Origin: a virus
Direction: 5' to 3' (one strand)
Length of the DNA stretch: 23,039 nucleotides
Virus record (IMG/VR): IMGVR_UViG_3300042509_000402
Coordinates: 1-23,039 of that record
Below are positions 3,390 through 23,019 of the stretch, one piece after another. The notes beneath the pieces were generated by a model. It was not told where the DNA came from. It did no database searches and was given only the letters and a program-made list of their open reading frames with translations. The position numbers and the translations under genes are program-made. Numbering within the stretch: the first letter of the stretch is position 1; each line of letters begins with the position of its first letter.

Positions 3390-3947
3390 TCAACCGATGA
3401 TGCTATCTCTCCACTCTTCACTCATATTTGACATAATTGCAATTGCTGCTTCTTGAGTATCAGCATATCCTTCATCAAGAAGATGCGAAAGAATTAAATC
3501 AAACATATCAAAATCTTCTTTCTTAGTTCCTTTTCTTGGATATGTAACTGCTTGTGGTTCTCCAGCACCTTTGACAACACGAGTAACTTCAGCAGCATGA
3601 CGGCTACCATACTCTCTTGCCATTTGACCTGTCATTCTCTTCACATAAGGCTTTTCTCTATTCATTCTTTGAGAAACTGTTTCTTCAGTTCCATCCTTTC
3701 TCTTACTTTTTGAAGATGGAGTTGCACGAAGTTTCCAATCACTTTTGAACTTCTCTTCAGGACCGTAACCTGATTTATCTTTACCAGCATCTGCTTTTTT
3801 CTTTGCTGCTTTCTTTTCGTCTGCTCTAATTTCTGCTTGAGTTCGACTTGGTTTATAAGGTTTTACACCAGGTGCTCTCTCTTCATCAAGTTCATTATAA
3901 ACTTGAGTATAAGCTTCTTGGAGATTGTAAAGGTCTTTTGAGTTCAT
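3390..3947 (-). CDS. late head-associated protein with internal-protein-like leader
   Basis: A 185-aa, Lys/Arg-rich protein driven by a perfect T4-type late promoter (TATAAATA at 3969-3976). The N-terminus MNSKDLYNLQEAY contains LQE|A, matching the T4 prohead protease (gp21) consensus, a hydrophobic residue two before Glu and a small residue after it. The centre is charged and low in hydrophobics. The C-terminus (about 148-185) is a helical module, DLILSHLLDEGYAD...MSNMSEEWRDSIIG, a type I associate with cyanophage structural proteins. Likely packaged in or scaffolding the head; function unknown. It is the last gene before the terminator at 3342-3367. Confidence 0.85.
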   Translation of the reverse strand: MNSKDLYNLQEAYTQVYNELDEERAPGVKPYKPSRTQAEIRADEKKAAKKKADAGKDKSGYGPEEKFKSDWKLRATPSSKSKRKDGTEETVSQRMNREKPYVKRMTGQMAREYGSRHAAEVTRVVKGAGEPQAVTYPRKGTKKEDFDMFDLILSHLLDEGYADTQEAAIAIMSNMSEEWRDSIIG

Positions 3948-3988: not shown

Positions 3989-5083
3989 TTATCTAAATCT
4001 ATGATTAACAATTTTTCCAGTTTCTAATGGATTTTTGTAAAATACATCATAAGAATCTTTTCCATTATTATAATCTTGTTTTCCTGCCATTTGAATTCTT
4101 TTTATTTGCATATCATATTTAATTTCTCTATCTCTCTTTTTTTCAGTTTGTCTTCCTTTTCTCAAATTAGATTGACTTTGACTCAGTTTTCTTATTTGCC
4201 GATTCATTAATTCACCAGGCATTTGCTTAAATTCTTCATCAACTTTACCAGTCATCAATCCAGTTTTTGCGGACTTTTCAGTGCTCCTTTTGCCGAAGAT
4301 TTTCTTATAAAGTTTTGCACGTTTTGCTTCACCAGTCTTCTTGTCTTCACCAGACATCACAGCAGTTGGTTTTCCAATTACAGTATCACCTTTCTTTGCT
4401 CCTGCCCTCTTTAAATGTTTCGGAGTATCTTTAAGTGCCTGAATAAAGTTTCTACCCCTCTCCATTTGTTGGTCTTTATCACCTTTACCAACATCACTAT
4501 CACGATGCATTACATCTACAGTGTGAACTTTACCTCTCTTATTAGCACCTGATTTAGACATACTCTTCTTCAAGTCCTTCACCCTTCTTACACTTTCACT
4601 TGAAGGTGCAGTCTTGAGTTTAGTCATTCCAGTCGCAGTTCTTCCTGCTGATTTGAACTTCTTAATGAGTTGTTCTCCCTTTGCTGCTTTTCTTGCTGAT
4701 GAATATGTGCGGATATAATGGTCTTGCTCAGTGCTTCCATAATCATCTTCAGTATCTTCACTATCATAAGTTGTATAATCTTTTGCTTTGGTTCTCAAAT
4801 CTTTAGTTGAATACTTACCAGTTCCTTTGAGTCCTGCCTTTTTTGCAACTGATGCTGTAGTTCTCTCTTGTCTATCCATATCAGCACCACGACCACGGGC
4901 AAGAGTTACTTTACCTCTGGTTCTTTTACCACTTCTTTCACCACCAGAACTTTCTTCAAGTTCTTCAATATCTTCTTTTACACAACGATTGTAAGTCTTT
5001 CCAAAGAGTTTTTGAGTGCCCTTCTTCTTATATCCAGGCCAACACTTCTTTGCTTCTGAAATAAATTCTTGATAAGTTTTCAT
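3989..5083 (-). CDS. putative internal head protein with T4-like capsid-targeting leader
   Basis: A 364-aa, strongly basic, low-hydrophobicity protein. Its first residues, MKTYQEFISE|A, nearly match the capsid-targeting sequence of T4 internal proteins (MKTYQEFIAE|A), which gp21 protease removes during head maturation. Directly after the cut site comes a Cys-flanked module, CWPGYKKKGTQ...YNRC (residues about 14-34). The rest is Lys/Arg-rich with many TGK/SGK-like stretches and no recognised enzyme fold. It suggests a DNA-bound protein packaged with the genome and perhaps injected into the host. The start overlaps the stop of the 151-aa gene by 4 bp (ATGA), so it is expressed from the late promoter at 5556-5563. 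Confidence 0.88.
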   Translation of the reverse strand: MKTYQEFISEAKKCWPGYKKKGTQKLFGKTYNRCVKEDIEELEESSGGERSGKRTRGKVTLARGRGADMDRQERTTASVAKKAGLKGTGKYSTKDLRTKAKDYTTYDSEDTEDDYGSTEQDHYIRTYSSARKAAKGEQLIKKFKSAGRTATGMTKLKTAPSSESVRRVKDLKKSMSKSGANKRGKVHTVDVMHRDSDVGKGDKDQQMERGRNFIQALKDTPKHLKRAGAKKGDTVIGKPTAVMSGEDKKTGEAKRAKLYKKIFGKRSTEKSAKTGLMTGKVDEEFKQMPGELMNRQIRKLSQSQSNLRKGRQTEKKRDREIKYDMQIKRIQMAGKQDYNNGKDSYDVFYKNPLETGKIVNHRFR

Positions 5084-5535
5084 TTTGATCCCCAGATGGA
5101 ATATCTACCACCATACTGACCTCTCCAAGAATCTGCTGCCTTACGTTTTGCTTGAACTCTATCAGTTGCAGTTGTTCCTGGTTTTGGTGCAGTCTTTGCA
5201 CCTCTCTCCTTCTTCACTCCTCTTCCAGAACCACCTTCACCATGTTCGTGTGGTTTGAATCCCATTGTAGGTCCTCCGTGAGTTCCACCTGCCTGAATTG
5301 CTGGATAACCACCTACTTTACCTTGCTTGTATCTTCCAAGGTCAGCAGTAGGGTTGATTTGCTTTTTCTCAACAGTTTTTGTTTCCCACTTTTTACCACT
5401 ACCTTCTGGTGCTTTTTGCACAGTTTTATATTTCTTAGTTAGATAAAGAGGAGTCTTCTTCTTTCCAGCAACTTTATCCTCTTTACGCATCTCAACGAGA
5501 TATGCTTCTTCTAAGAACTCTCTGAAGGTCTTCAT
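5080..5535 (-). CDS. putative internal head protein with capsid-targeting leader
   Basis: A 151-aa basic, Gly/Lys-rich protein. The N-terminus MKTFREFLEE|AY fits the T4 capsid-targeting and gp21-cleavage pattern (L-E-E|A). The remainder, with runs such as GGTHGGPTMG and GEGGSGRG, looks unstructured and nucleic-acid binding; no catalytic motif is seen. The late element AATAAATA lies 20 nt before the ATG, and the stop codon overlaps the next gene's ATG, giving a two-gene late unit. The product is probably cleaved during head maturation and retained inside the capsid. Confidence 0.85.
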   Translation of the reverse strand: MKTFREFLEEAYLVEMRKEDKVAGKKKTPLYLTKKYKTVQKAPEGSGKKWETKTVEKKQINPTADLGRYKQGKVGGYPAIQAGGTHGGPTMGFKPHEHGEGGSGRGVKKERGAKTAPKPGTTATDRVQAKRKAADSWRGQYGGRYSIWGSK

Positions 5536-5554: not shown

Positions 5555-6370
5555 TTATTTATTTGCTTTTCTCTTTGCTCTTCTTGCTGCAGCAGCAAGA
5601 AGTTCTTTGTGACTAATTGCAGACTCTCTACTTCCTGGTCCAGAAACAATATCTTTTGTCTTTCCTTCAAGTTCGTGTGCTCCACCAGCACGATGGTAAA
5701 TTCCAGGTTTATCTGCTGGGTCAGTGGATTTCTTTGTGCCCATCACATTCTTCGGATGATGCCCGTGATAAACACCAATCTTTGCATCTCTTGCTTTTCT
5801 TGCTTCCCACTCAGCATCACTCATAGATGCTTTTAATTTTGCAGAATGATGTGTTGGAGTAATATGATGTGCTTCTAATCCTTTTGCTTTTAACTTTCTT
5901 ACTTTAGTATCTGCCGATTCTCTTTCTGATGAAGAACTTAGACTTGCAATTCTTTCTGCTCTTGCTTGTCTTTCCTTAACACCACCTTCTTTTGGTTTTA
6001 ATCTCCACTTTGGATTTTCAGTGCTGCCAGCATTGTTTGCATAATATCCAGATGGAATTCCACCGTGATGTTTTTCAAGTTCTGCTCTACTTGAAAAATG
6101 TCTTTGTGCTTCACTAATATATGATTCTTCTACAAACTCTTTGAATGTTTTTTTCTTGCGATTTCTTGCTGGATGTGAAACTCTTCCACTATCTAAGTTT
6201 CTCTCTGCTTCACCTCTTTTCTTTGCCCACATTTGCATCAAAGCAGTTCCAGGTGCTTCAATGTGTCCAGTTTTCACAAAATCCTTTGGTGATTGTGCAG
6301 CAGATGCTGCCATTGTTGCTGCTAAAAATGCATTAGCAACTTTCTCTCTTTTCTTTGCTTCTTGGAGCAT
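5555..6370 (-). CDS. putative packaged AHH/HNH-type nuclease with internal capsid-targeting motif
   Basis: A 271-aa basic protein. The C-terminal third holds EAHHITPTHH (166-175), a helical stretch, VYHGHHPKNVMG (200-211) and further histidines (H226, H232). This resembles the AHH family of HNH/endonuclease VII-like nucleases known from bacterial toxins. Residues 72-88 (KKKTFKEFVEESYISEA) match the leader of its neighbours, with possible gp21 cuts at VEE|S and ISE|A; a shorter LQE|A sits at residues 2-5. So a leader motif is internal, after about 70 extra N-terminal residues, as if a new start was fused upstream. The late element GATAAATA lies 23 nt before the ATG. The domain call is by motif only; the nuclease may be inactive. 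Confidence 0.8.
   Translation of the reverse strand: MLQEAKKREKVANAFLAATMAASAAQSPKDFVKTGHIEAPGTALMQMWAKKRGEAERNLDSGRVSHPARNRKKKTFKEFVEESYISEAQRHFSSRAELEKHHGGIPSGYYANNAGSTENPKWRLKPKEGGVKERQARAERIASLSSSSERESADTKVRKLKAKGLEAHHITPTHHSAKLKASMSDAEWEARKARDAKIGVYHGHHPKNVMGTKKSTDPADKPGIYHRAGGAHELEGKTKDIVSGPGSRESAISHKELLAAAARRAKRKANK
5556..5563 (-). promoter_or_regulatory. T4-type late promoter AATAAATA
   Basis: It lies 20 nt upstream of the ATG at 5535 and overlaps the stop codon of the preceding gene. A similar A-rich leader follows the late element before the 58-aa gene at 10176. Confidence 0.6.
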
Positions 6371-6392
6371 TTAGACACAAAAATATCTCTGA

Positions 6393-6548
6393 TTATTTAT
6401 CATATATGGGAGAATCAACATAAGAAAGAGACTTGACGAAGAGTTCAGTAAATCGTTCTTGCTTTTCTGGATGCACATATGCTGGATTTTGCGAAATTGC
6501 TTTGCGTAAAACATCCATTTCTTCAAATTCTTCTTTACTTAAACTCAT
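6393..6548 (-). CDS. small unknown protein (51 aa)
   Basis: It starts MSLSKEEFEEMDVLRKAISQ and ends VDSPIYDK. A strong GGGGAG ribosome site lies 8 nt before the ATG. The 51-aa protein is helical and acidic at the N-terminus, with no membrane span or recognised domain. Its stop codon overlaps the late promoter of the next gene (6394-6401). A possible extended -10 (TGTTAGAAT) sits at 6576-6584. The clear ribosome site and the fit into the gap make it a real gene. Confidence 0.78.
   Translation of the reverse strand: MSLSKEEFEEMDVLRKAISQNPAYVHPEKQERFTELFVKSLSYVDSPIYDK
6394..6401 (-). promoter_or_regulatory. T4-type late promoter GATAAATA
   Basis: It lies 23 nt before the ATG at 6370 and matches the NATAAATA form of the late box. 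It overlaps the end of the 51-aa gene. Confidence 0.65.
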
Positions 6549-17209: not shown

Positions 17210-17217
17210 TATTTATC
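17210..17217 (-). promoter_or_regulatory. T4-type late promoter GATAAATA
   Basis: It lies 21 nt before the ATG at 17188 and overlaps the stop codon of the 736-aa fibre gene (17213-17215), giving the dioxygenase its own late start. Confidence 0.62.
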
Positions 17218-19423
17218 CTATTGGTGTATTGGCAGTTGCTGCTAATTGACTTCTCGCTAAACTTAATGGTCCTCTTGGTGATGCTTGAACTGAATCATTA
17301 GAGAAATCTAAACGGTTTACTGTTGCTACTGTTGTTGGAGTAGATCCTCCACCAAACCAACCATAGTTAGAGTTTCCTGATGCTGCTAAATCATCGGTTG
17401 CAGCAATAAATGAAGATCTAACTGATGCTGCTACGGAATCATTAGAGAAATTTATACGGTCTATTCTTGTGGATCTTGTTGCTATAACAATCCCACCACC
17501 AAACCATCCATAATCATAGTTTCCTGTTGCTGCTAAAGATCTTCTTCCTTGAGATAAACTGCCTCTAGTTGATAATGAATTTACATCATTTGAAAAATCC
17601 AAACGATTAACACCATTACTAGCAAACCAACCATAATTAAAGTTTCCAACTGCTGCTTCATTAACTTGAATTAATGGACTTGAATTTCTAATATTTATTC
17701 TTGTATCATTAGAAAAATTAATTCTATCTATTCTTGATATAGTTGACGGAGTTGATCCAGGATTAAGACCACCAGCAAACCAACCATAATTAGAATTGCT
17801 TACTGCTGCAGTTACGGCTCTTTCTATAGTTAATGGACTTCTCACAGATGCAGTTACAGAATCATTAGAGAAATTTATACGTTCCACTGTTGATACTGGT
17901 GTTGGTACAGCAGTTCTTCCACCACCAATCCAACCATAGTTAGAGTTTCCTGTTGCTGCTAAATATCCTCTTCCCGCAGTCAATGAACCTCTAGGTGATG
18001 CTGTCGCAGAATCATTAGAGAAATCTATACGATCTACTACTGCTGAAAATGTTGGAGATATAAAACCACCACCAAACCAGCCATAAGTTCCAGTTTTTGG
18101 AATAGTAGTACTGCGAGATCTTGCCTGTCCTGATGTTGCCCCCCCACTACCTTTTGCTGAACTTAATGGACCTCTTATATTTGCAGTTCCAGTATCATTT
18201 GAGAAATCTATACGATCTACTGATGATAATGGTGTTGTCTCTCCTGTTTTACCACCAAACCATCCATAGTTAGAGTTTCCTGTTGCTGTTAAATTATATC
18301 TTTCTTGACTCAATGGACCTCTCACTGATGCTGTTGCAGAATCATTGGAAAAATCTATACGGTCTACTATTGATGCTTGAGGTGCTGGAGTATAACCACC
18401 ACCAAACCAACCATAATTAGAGTTTCCTGTTGCTGCCATTCGACTTCTTTCTGAACTTAATGGACCTCTAACGGATGCTGTTGAGGAATCATTGGAAAAA
18501 TCTATACGGTCTACTACTGATACTGGTCCAGGAGCACCACCACCAAACCAACCATAGTTAGAGTTTCCTGTTGCTGCTAAAGAATCTTTTGCTAAACTTA
18601 ATGAACCTCTTGCGGATGCCGTTGAAGAATCATTAGAGAAATCTATACGATCTACTACTGATGAAAATGTTGGAGATGTACTACCACCAAACCAACCATA
18701 GTTAGAGTTTCCTGTTGCTGCTAATCTATGTCTTGTTGAACTTAATGGACCTCTAACGGATGCTGTTGAGGAATCATTAGAAAAATCTATACGGTCTACT
18801 GTTGATACTGCTGGAGATGCCTCAGGAGCACCACCACCGAACCAACCATAATTAGAGTTTCCTGTTGCTGCTAATCTATGTCTTGTTGAACTTAATGGAC
18901 CTCTAACGGATGCTGTTGAGGAATCATTAGAAAAATCTATACGGTCTACTGTTGATACTATTGCTGGTCCTGTGGTATAACCACCACCAAACCATCCGTG
19001 AGTTTGATTACTACTCCATGTTGTATTTGTAACAGTAGTATCAGTCACTAACATTACCAAACCAGTTGTGGTAATACCAGCAATCACAGAACCAACATAA
19101 CCAGTAGTTGCATAAGAAACTGTTGTAGTTCCTGCAAATCCTGTGACTACAAAATTTCCATTATATCCAGTATATGCAACACCAGCAGCATCTGCAAGAC
19201 CAGAAACTGCAATCTTTACACCAGTATAAAAAGGTGTAGTAGAAAGACCAGCAGTAGTAGAAAGAGTCAGAGTTGCAATACCAGCAGTAGTATCTAAAGT
19301 TCCACTTACAACTGTAATACCAGCACCAGCAGCAGTAGAATTAATATCTACAGCAGAAACCGTAACTGGATTTGATACATTTAGAAAAAATCCATCAAGA
19401 CCAAATACGTCTCCTGCTGGCAT
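17213..19423 (-). CDS. Kelch-like repeat fibre protein (12 repeats, 6+6)
   Basis: A 736-aa protein. Residues 1 to about 140 are Thr/Ser/Gly/Ala-rich beta sequence (Ig- or fibre-like: TTAGIATLTLSTTAG). Then follow 12 repeats of about 50 aa on the plan YGWFGGG...VDRIDFSND..TAS.RGPLS..R..LAATGNSN. The GG, V-D-R and R...A pattern fits a Kelch beta-propeller blade. Repeat 6 ends in an irregular insert (SGQARSRSTTIPKTGT), splitting the array 6+6. Repeats 1 and 2 share 108 identical bases. AAGGAG lies 7 nt before the ATG. Likely a tail fibre or adhesin on the virion binding host sugars; it follows the glycosyltransferase gene by 11 bp. Confidence 0.85.
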   Translation of the reverse strand: MPAGDVFGLDGFFLNVSNPVTVSAVDINSTAAGAGITVVSGTLDTTAGIATLTLSTTAGLSTTPFYTGVKIAVSGLADAAGVAYTGYNGNFVVTGFAGTTTVSYATTGYVGSVIAGITTTGLVMLVTDTTVTNTTWSSNQTHGWFGGGYTTGPAIVSTVDRIDFSNDSSTASVRGPLSSTRHRLAATGNSNYGWFGGGAPEASPAVSTVDRIDFSNDSSTASVRGPLSSTRHRLAATGNSNYGWFGGSTSPTFSSVVDRIDFSNDSSTASARGSLSLAKDSLAATGNSNYGWFGGGAPGPVSVVDRIDFSNDSSTASVRGPLSSERSRMAATGNSNYGWFGGGYTPAPQASIVDRIDFSNDSATASVRGPLSQERYNLTATGNSNYGWFGGKTGETTPLSSVDRIDFSNDTGTANIRGPLSSAKGSGGATSGQARSRSTTIPKTGTYGWFGGGFISPTFSAVVDRIDFSNDSATASPRGSLTAGRGYLAATGNSNYGWIGGGRTAVPTPVSTVERINFSNDSVTASVRSPLTIERAVTAAVSNSNYGWFAGGLNPGSTPSTISRIDRINFSNDTRINIRNSSPLIQVNEAAVGNFNYGWFASNGVNRLDFSNDVNSLSTRGSLSQGRRSLAATGNYDYGWFGGGIVIATRSTRIDRINFSNDSVAASVRSSFIAATDDLAASGNSNYGWFGGGSTPTTVATVNRLDFSNDSVQASPRGPLSLARSQLAATANTPIG
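18702..18959. repeat. 108-bp exact tandem repeat, period 150 bp
   Basis: 18702-18809 and 18852-18959 are identical over 108 bp, covering most of repeats 2 and 1 of the fibre gene. The period, 150 bp, is one 50-aa blade. It marks a recent blade duplication or gene conversion. Confidence 0.85.
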
Positions 19424-21171: not shown

Positions 21172-23019
21172 TTACCTTGTTGTGTTGGAGGTTGCATCTA
21201 AATTATCTCTTGCCAAAGTTAATGGATTTCTTATTGCTATTGTTGCTAAATCATTCGAGAAATCTATACGGTCTACTGTTGATATACGTGTTGGAGTAGA
21301 ACCACCACCAAACCAACCATAGTTAGAGTTTCCTGTTGCTCCCATTCTACCTTTTGCGAGAGATAATGTTGCTCTTCTCAATGGAACTGCTAAATCATTT
21401 GCAAAATCTATACGGTCTACAACTGACGTATGACTTGGAGACCCACCACCAAACCAACCATAGTTAGAGTTTCCTGTTGCTGCGTCATTAAATCGTGATT
21501 CTAAAAATGAACCTCTTGGTGATGGTGATGTTAAATCATTTGAAAAATTAATACGCCGCACAACAACAGAAAGTCCCCCACCAAACCAACCATAGTTAGA
21601 GTTTCCTGTTGCTGATAAACCAGGAGCTGCAGCAGGAAATGCAGTTCTTACCGATGCTGTTGCTAAATCATTCGAGAAATCTATACGGTCTACTCTACCT
21701 ATTGGAGAATCTCCACCACCAAACCAACCATAGTTAGAATTTCCTGTTGCTGCTAAAAAATCTCTTGCTAAACTCAATGAACCTCTTTGTGATGCTGTGG
21801 GAGAATCATTTGAAAAATCTATACGTTCTACTGTAGATTTTGATCCTGGACCACCACCACCAAACCAACCATAATTAGAGTTTCCTGTTGCTGCCATATA
21901 ATATCTGGATGCATTCAATGAACCTCTTAGTGATGCTGCTGATAAATCATTCGAGAAATTTATGCGGTCTATTGTTGATACTGCTGGTAATAATCCACCA
22001 CCAAACCAACCAAAATTCCCTGCTTTTTGTCTGCGAATATTGAGAACTCCTGAGGTTGCTGCTAAATTACCTCTTGCAGTAAATAATAAACCTCTTGGTG
22101 ATGCTGATAATAAGTCATTTGAAAAATCAATACGATCCACTGTTGATACAAATGCTGGAGATTCTGCACCACCAAACCAACCATAATTAGAGTTTCCTGT
22201 TGCTGCCATAGTTGCTTTTGCCGACACCAATGAACCTCTTACAGATGCAGTTACAGAATCATTAGAGAAATCTATACGGTCTACTGTTGCTACTGATGCT
22301 GGACCAGGAATGAGACCTCCACCAAACCAACCATAGTTAGAGTTTCCTACTGCTGAAGATTTTTGTCTTGCCAAACTTAATGGACTTCTTGGTGTTAATA
22401 TTGCAAAATCATTTGAAAAATCTATGCGATCTACTGTCGAATAAACTGTAGGTGCAATATATCCACCACCAAACCAACCATAGTTAGAATTTCCTACCGA
22501 TGATAATCTTTCTCTTGCCAAACTTAACGAACCTCTTGGTGATGCTGTTGCAGAATCATTTGAGAAATCTATACGGTCTACTGTTGATACTACTGCTGGA
22601 GTTGTAATAGACCCACCACCAAACCAAGCATAATTAGAGTTTCCAGTTGATGCTAAATCTGCTTTTGCCAGATTTAATGAACCTTTTGTCGATGCTGTTA
22701 CAGAATCATTAGAGAAATCTATACGATTAACCGTTGATACTGAAGGAAATCCACCACCAAACCAACCATAATTAGAGTTTCCTGTTGCTGATAAACTTCG
22801 GTTTATTGAACTTAATGAACCTCTAGACTGTGCTGTTACAGAATCATTAGAGAAGTCTATACGATCTACTGATGATACATTTCCTGGTGTAATAAGTCCA
22901 CCACCAAACCAACCATAATTCGCAACGGATTCTTTATTCAACCAATCACCAGTCAGTCGTCCACTACGAACTTCTCCAAGTGTAAATGCTCCAAATATAT
23001 TGTTATTATTGATTGTCAT
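21172..23019 (-). CDS. Kelch-like repeat fibre protein (12 repeats, 6+6)
   Basis: A 615-aa protein with a short head (MTINNNNIFGAFTLGEVRSG, to about residue 34) followed by 12 Kelch-like blades of 43-57 aa on the same plan as the 736-aa protein. Again repeat 6 ends in an irregular insert (SGVLNIRRQKAGN) before repeat 7, so the array is 6+6. Several blades deviate (for example repeat 10, SVVVRRINFSND). It lacks the long beta-rich N-terminus of its paralogue. The ATG is 20 bp from the window end, so its promoter is not visible. Likely a tail fibre or capsid-surface adhesin. Confidence 0.85.
   Translation of the reverse strand: MTINNNNIFGAFTLGEVRSGRLTGDWLNKESVANYGWFGGGLITPGNVSSVDRIDFSNDSVTAQSRGSLSSINRSLSATGNSNYGWFGGGFPSVSTVNRIDFSNDSVTASTKGSLNLAKADLASTGNSNYAWFGGGSITTPAVVSTVDRIDFSNDSATASPRGSLSLARERLSSVGNSNYGWFGGGYIAPTVYSTVDRIDFSNDFAILTPRSPLSLARQKSSAVGNSNYGWFGGGLIPGPASVATVDRIDFSNDSVTASVRGSLVSAKATMAATGNSNYGWFGGAESPAFVSTVDRIDFSNDLLSASPRGLLFTARGNLAATSGVLNIRRQKAGNFGWFGGGLLPAVSTIDRINFSNDLSAASLRGSLNASRYYMAATGNSNYGWFGGGGPGSKSTVERIDFSNDSPTASQRGSLSLARDFLAATGNSNYGWFGGGDSPIGRVDRIDFSNDLATASVRTAFPAAAPGLSATGNSNYGWFGGGLSVVVRRINFSNDLTSPSPRGSFLESRFNDAATGNSNYGWFGGGSPSHTSVVDRIDFANDLAVPLRRATLSLAKGRMGATGNSNYGWFGGGSTPTRISTVDRIDFSNDLATIAIRNPLTLARDNLDATSNTTR

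Follow-up and report, generated by a model that had tools for sequence, protein, structure and literature searches.

A predicted HNH-like nuclease behind an internal T4-type capsid-targeting leader: a candidate head-delivered cargo of uncultivated T4-like cyanophages

The window, by which we mean the whole 23,039-nucleotide stretch of viral DNA that was analysed, is a 23-kb IMG/VR fragment carrying cyanomyovirus genes, such as those for a CobS-like ATPase and a CobT-like peptidase. On its minus strand, positions 5555-6370 encode a protein of 271 aa composed of an N-domain (aa 1-72), a leader (aa 73-88) and a histidine-rich C-terminal domain containing the motifs EAHHITPTHH (aa 166-175), VYHGHHPKN (aa 200-208) and HRAGGAHE (aa 226-233). 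The open reading frame is a genuine gene, with about 40 distinct relatives, all from uncultivated viruses (IMG/VR), and with dN/dS values of 0.23-0.44 in the nuclease part that indicate purifying selection, to which the N-domain is also subject. The gene, its promoter and its neighbours are arranged as follows, slashes marking the predicted cleavage points of leaders.

6394-6401, minus strand: T4-type late promoter GATAAATA, a direct match some 31 nt ahead of the start codon
6155-6370, minus strand: N-domain, aa 1-72, predicted helical (alignment of 60 loci with several cargo types)
6107-6154, minus strand: internal leader KKTFKEFVEE/SYISE/A, aa 73-88 (conservation; T4 leader from NC_000866)
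5645-6103, minus strand: predicted HNH/EndoVII-like nuclease domain, aa 90-242 (alignments, AlphaFold2, weak HNH_2/AHH Pfam matches)
5864-5869, minus strand: invariant H168-H169, predicted metal ligand and general base (36 sequences)
5747-5770, minus strand: YHGHHPKN, aa 201-208, with Y201, H202, G203 and N208 invariant (36 sequences)
5693-5695, minus strand: invariant H226, predicted second metal ligand, before helix 231-238 (36 sequences)
5080-5535, minus strand: adjacent cargo gene of RKEDKV type, leader MKTFREFLEE/A (leader motif)
3989-5083, minus strand: next cargo gene, leader MKTYQEFISE/A, 9/10 identical to T4 IPII/IPIII, with a KCWPGY module
3390-3947, minus strand: further candidate virion protein (MNSKDLYNLQEAY), similar to S-SCSM1 ORF89, an annotated virion protein

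A preliminary description of this DNA had proposed a capsid-targeting motif lying inside the protein, behind a fusion of about 70 residues, and both points hold: KKTFKEFVEE occupies aa 73-82 behind an N-terminal fusion of about 72 aa, it is kept at the functional positions, and it matches T4 IPII and IPIII, which both begin MKTYQEFIAE/A (NC_000866). Within the T4 leader, residues 4 and 7 serve targeting and residues 8 and 10 processing (PMC9026906), and window-type leaders agree with T4 IPII/IPIII at each position important in T4. K74, T75, F76, F79 and E82, each more than 90% conserved in an alignment of 33 relatives, correspond to T4 positions 2, 3, 4, 7 and 10, and the window leader itself has aromatic F76 at 4, F79 at 7, hydrophobic V80 at 8, E82 at 10 and small S83 at P1'. 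When leaders were gathered by a pattern that fixed the conserved positions, a small P1' residue (A/S/C/T) was found in 109 of 112 distinct leaders. The motif occurs in three adjacent ORFs of the window, where residue shuffling gives an expectation of 0.1, and several times per contig in each of three relatives' contigs. Characterised T4 leaders sit at the N-terminus and the one in the window starts at aa 73; relatives with N-terminal leaders are the nucleases of L029 (MKTFKEFILEA), L077 (MKTFQKFIAEA), L051, L069, L074 and L075. The possibility that the start is mis-called and translation opens at the leader was rejected for the window: codon 73 encodes Lys, the N-domain is under purifying selection and the promoter fits the N-domain ATG. 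The prohead protease gp21 is predicted to cut after E82 and possibly E87, and E4, invariant in the N-domain start M[LI]xE/[GA], perhaps marks another gp21 site.

Of 35 related loci, 27 have the promoter element NATAAATA, published as the late promoter of cyanomyoviruses (PMC2984593), between -28 and -33, against a background of 2.2% in random 90-nt stretches; where it is missing, the nuclease is mostly a downstream gene. The ORF is accordingly placed among genes predicted to be expressed late. Around the late promoter, eight loci (L011, L033, L056, L070, L082, L084, L088 and L093) have a strong hairpin and T-run with the promoter in the loop, for example GACCTCTGATAAATAATCAGAGGTCTTTTT; it looks like a terminator and late promoter in one element, and is weak in the window (6385-6415).

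The CobT-like peptidase of the window has at most 47.5% identity to sequenced phages, the best match being Synechococcus phage DSL-LC02, so the lineage is without a close member among sequenced phage records. Scans of IMG/VR with the nuclease returned 34, 48 and 47 loci in overlapping sets, and with the N-domain 60 loci. The region for gp21 and gp23 falls outside the 23-kb window, and among 12 partial contigs from relatives 5 encode them; gp23 of family-bearing phages has LME/A- or LYE/T-like sites, and long contigs bearing the nuclease family carry psbA/psbD-type photosystem reaction-centre genes. Together, gp21, gp23 and the photosystem genes identify the carriers as T4-like cyanophages, and the host group of the window virus appears to be water-dwelling cyanobacteria. 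Neither the nuclease nor the N-domain has a relative in 50,697 phage records, sequenced cyanomyoviruses included. Two scans of GTDB genomes likewise found no relative of the nuclease, on which ground a cellular or prophage origin was rejected, and a BFVD match to S-CBP4 M1NXR4 was set aside as showing neither profile similarity nor an HH motif. Relatives without a leader occur in podovirus-type cyanophage contigs (L076, L184, L185); those of L184 and L185 follow a fused Gly-rich hydrophobic N-terminal region, and the one of L185 stands directly upstream of a large terminase gene and a transaldolase-like gene.

Downstream of the nuclease gene, the KCWPGY module of the 3989-5083 gene is common to S-CREM2 ORF160, which is virion-detected, and the 3390-3947 product matches S-SCSM1 ORF89 at E 7e-8 in a two-sequence comparison. 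Beyond the cargo cluster lie a D12-class adenine methyltransferase (388-1227) and a free-standing HNH endonuclease (2126-2584). The Dam methylase was considered as a self-protection partner and rejected, as no specific link was found and Dam genes are annotated in S-CREM2 and S-SCSM1 too. Elsewhere in the window, 17213-19423 and 21172-23019 encode two large repeat proteins (VDRIDFSNDS.TAS.RG.LS..R..LAATGNSNYGWFGGG), which are kelch-like and consist of many repeats, and are probably tail fibre or adhesin proteins.

The N-domain, with the pattern MLxE..KR..ANA.L..AAQSP...NLD.., occurs with several different cargoes. Counted as distinct proteins, N-domain and leader precede the nuclease in 27, RKEDK in 11 and a second HNH-like cargo (TGTKHVVDHNQP...SSN) in two, with others besides; seven further distinct nucleases start with the leader itself. 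The second HNH-like cargo (TGTKHVVDHNQPQ...SSN...NL; L088 5001-5792 and L138 5001-5861) is unrelated to the nuclease and has the same N-domain and leader. RKEDKV-type cargo is fused to N-domain and leader in L035, L089 and L093-L098. Four loci (L089, L093, L097 and L098) have the N-domain fused to RKEDK, with leader plus nuclease as the next gene; the window is their mirror image, with N-domain, leader and nuclease followed by a leader-tagged RKEDKV-type gene. To judge from these gene arrangements, this is a reciprocal cargo swap at the leader between nuclease and RKEDK types. Divergence of the two parts is discordant: N-domain and nuclease have dN of 0.04 and 0.21 between window and L027, and of 0.48 and 0.18 between window and L013, a sign of recombination at or close to the leader. 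In L020 the nuclease is fused to a module also found in S-CREM2 ORF160. Proteins of about 540-700 aa in L123, L126 and L142 chain RKEDK, KCWPGY and CPAGKYWC modules behind the N-domain, like a head-cargo polyprotein.

Virion proteomes of cultured cyanophages bear on whether such leaders accompany head packaging. Mass spectrometry of S-CREM2 virions identified 52 proteins (Table 3, PMC10665884), among them all four annotated S-CREM2 proteins that bear a leader: ORF6 SAM hydrolase, ORF13, ORF14 kinase and ORF154 cytidylyltransferase. The association has P=0.003, or P=0.0004 without named structural proteins, for a leader pattern looser than the window type that was written after ORF154 had been seen and before the other three; a fifth match was left uncounted, as it is an internal start inside the annotated DNA polymerase gene. 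The same virions contain ORF12, an HNH-motif protein annotated Cas9/Csn1 (PMC10665884), which has a leader-like segment, PLRFASFMAE/A, near its N-terminus. Its Cas9 name looks doubtful; ORF12 (L237 7704-10313) has an HNH-like motif only, PKTFRDFL at the C-terminus and no Pfam match. Scanning 6-135 kb of S-SCSM1 gave two leader-bearing ORFs, only one of which is marked a virion protein, the NMNAT beginning MKSFLQFLKE/A. A leader start of this kind is common to the NMNAT (L241 33820-35001, MKSFLQFLKEA) and an ORF of L159, of the window-type lineage (G001 83702-84901, MKSFAQFVKEA). The authors of the S-CREM2 study consider that non-structural virion proteins may be carry-over. Head packaging is well supported by the presence of leader-bearing and HNH proteins in S-CREM2 virions. 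These detections belong to other cyanophage proteins; packaging of the window protein itself we regard as highly probable.

The C-terminal domain had been described as an AHH/HNH-type nuclease on the strength of its histidines, and these fall into two groups across 36 sequences: H168, H169, H202 and H226 are invariant, while H174, H175, H204 and H205 vary. Ten residues are invariant down to 28% identity (R137, K156, H168, H169, S176, Y201, H202, G203, N208 and H226), with histidine over-represented among them (P=0.003), and H168, H169, N208 and H226 form the HH-N-H pattern of HNH/EndoVII nucleases. This wider arrangement is supported, the pattern being strictly conserved; membership of the Pfam AHH family was rejected on scores under the curated cut-off. 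The window protein has no match to Pfam AHH (PF14412), and the best relative, L076, reaches E 0.0008 and 19.8 bits against a cut-off of 22.3. Tox-AHH proteins are defined by [AG]HH, N, H, H and Y (PMC3482391); in the window family HH, N and the first H are invariant, the second H (H232) is present in 24 of 36, the residue preceding HH varies, and there is no conserved Tyr after the last His, Y201 preceding N208. A tblastn search of plasmids for sequences from which to build an AHH profile found nothing. HNH_2 gives weak matches in 7 of 33 relatives, the best 0.036 and below the curated cut-off, and of the HNH PHROGs none is matched by the window protein and one by a single relative, at E 0.08.

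Structure prediction by AlphaFold2 (pLDDT 83) places strands at 166-169, which includes HH, and at 209-213, with a helix at 231-238 after H226. This is the order expected for a beta-beta-alpha metal fold, with N208 opening the second strand. Foldseek against the PDB found no HNH structure for either AlphaFold2 model, and profile searches of PDB sequences found no HNH match; a PDB phmmer match to lysyl-tRNA ligase and matches to mL86 were judged chance. On the residue pattern and the strand and helix order, nuclease activity is likely.

The reading that we prefer, at a probability of roughly 0.6, is that the protein is a head cargo resembling the T4 internal proteins, probably a DNase, and delivered with the genome, with cleavage, catalysis, injection and target all deduced. 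A head-cargo precursor would be transcribed late and brought into the prohead core by its internal leader, where gp21 would cut after E82 (perhaps also E87 and E4), separating the N-domain from an HNH/EndoVII-type nuclease of about 185 aa. The nuclease would remain in the head through DNA filling, be ejected with the genome into a new cell and there, most likely, cut the DNA of the host or a competitor. Injection with subsequent cleavage of host or rival DNA we hold to be an even bet. Against the preferred reading we count the absence of HNH fold matches, Pfam scores below cut-offs, the internal position of the leader, possible virion carry-over and the second leader-bearing ORF of S-SCSM1, which is not marked as a virion protein, as well as the need of a DNase in a DNA-filled head for a silencing mechanism. 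T4 heads into which staphylococcal nuclease has been packaged tolerate it for as long as calcium is not added (PMC9026906), and withholding of metal is thus a workable precedent for protection of the genome.

Such silencing would be unnecessary if the cargo were packaged and did not cut, acting as an anti-restriction or DNA-binding protein like T4 Ip1-3. All three of those characterised proteins are inhibitors and not enzymes (PMC12373910), and the missing Foldseek match in the PDB to an HNH fold is in keeping with this. However, 36 divergent sequences, leaderless podovirus-type relatives included, all keep the predicted catalytic HH, N and H, and binding alone does not obviously require them, which makes a non-cutting cargo unlikely. 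Somewhat less likely still is a packaged nuclease that acts in the prohead or in DNA packaging and genome trimming, and not in the new host. HNH proteins have packaging roles in other phages, and the position of the distant L185 relative beside the terminase gene would suit such a role, but the T4-like phages have the gene in a cluster of leader-bearing cargo genes, and its absence from sequenced cyanomyoviruses argues against a core packaging factor.

Homing HNH genes are frequent in phages of this kind, the window itself having an HNH gene at 2126-2584; yet a free-standing homing-type endonuclease lying near structural genes by chance is very improbable for a protein outside the HNH PHROGs whose leader is conserved at functional positions, whose domain is swapped at the leader and which has a late promoter. 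A coincidental leader match in an unpackaged protein is just as hard to credit, for although the virion detections concern S-CREM2 and S-SCSM1 and not the window lineage, the three adjacent motif-bearing ORFs, the near-identity of the leaders to T4 IPII/IPIII and the S-CREM2 virion data all argue otherwise.

More broadly, T4-like cyanophages may exchange their injected effectors by a natural system, in which a precursor made late joins a conserved N-domain and a prohead-protease leader to interchangeable cargo, including an injected HNH/AHH-like DNase, a proposal to which we give equal odds for and against. Cyanophages are among the most abundant viruses, and to our knowledge the proteins that they inject are nearly unknown. 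The leader makes discovery of cyanophage cargo a sequence search and predicts virion cargo in cultured phages, and it offers a reason for the NMNAT, SAM hydrolase, kinase and Cas9-named HNH protein in S-CREM2 and S-SCSM1 virions. If this proposal is true, the family would be the first of natural nucleases to be linked with the T4 capsid-targeting signal, and would raise the questions of how the phage silences a DNase beside its packed genome and what the DNase cuts in the next host.

The closest known system is that of the T4 internal proteins, which have the leader alone in common while the cargo varies (PMC3012670, PMC12373910), and of which Ip1-3 inhibit GmrSD restriction enzymes (PMC12373910). 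The window protein shares their leader chemistry and predicted cleavage (MKTYQEFIAE/A against KKTFKEFVEE/S) and the combination of a conserved leader with unrelated cargo, T4 ipII and ipIII also adjoining; it differs in having the leader behind a conserved N-domain and in carrying a nuclease-like cargo in place of a small inhibitor. The preliminary description knew of no described head-delivered AHH nuclease in phages, a statement softened by two cases of head nucleases or nuclease-like proteins. One is the T4 phage with staphylococcal nuclease behind the capsid-targeting sequence (PMC9026906), likewise a head-carried nuclease and inactive until metal is added, but man-made and with another nuclease, whereas the window arrangement is natural. 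The other, S-CREM2 ORF12 (PMC10665884), is a virion protein of a cyanomyovirus and combines a classical HNH-like motif with a leader-like segment, yet it is three times longer and has no sequence relation to the window family detectable by hhalign. Tox-AHH (PF14412) shares the HH, N, H pattern, most closely with the divergent L076, but the window family stays under the 22.3 cut-off, has no such Tyr and no toxin delivery context. Polyvalent proteins are phage proteins of several domains whose early delivery into the host has been proposed (PMC5512222), and resemble the window type in both respects, delivery being proposed here; window-type proteins are shorter and built around a T4 leader, and signature polyvalent Pfam domains are absent from the window protein and nine cargo proteins of the window and related phages. 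Our literature search, with subscription papers outside it, found no paper applying the capsid-targeting concept to cyanophage cargo. New here are the nuclease-type cargo family, the placing of the leader inside the protein after an exchangeable N-domain, and the connection of this leader with published cyanophage virion proteomes.
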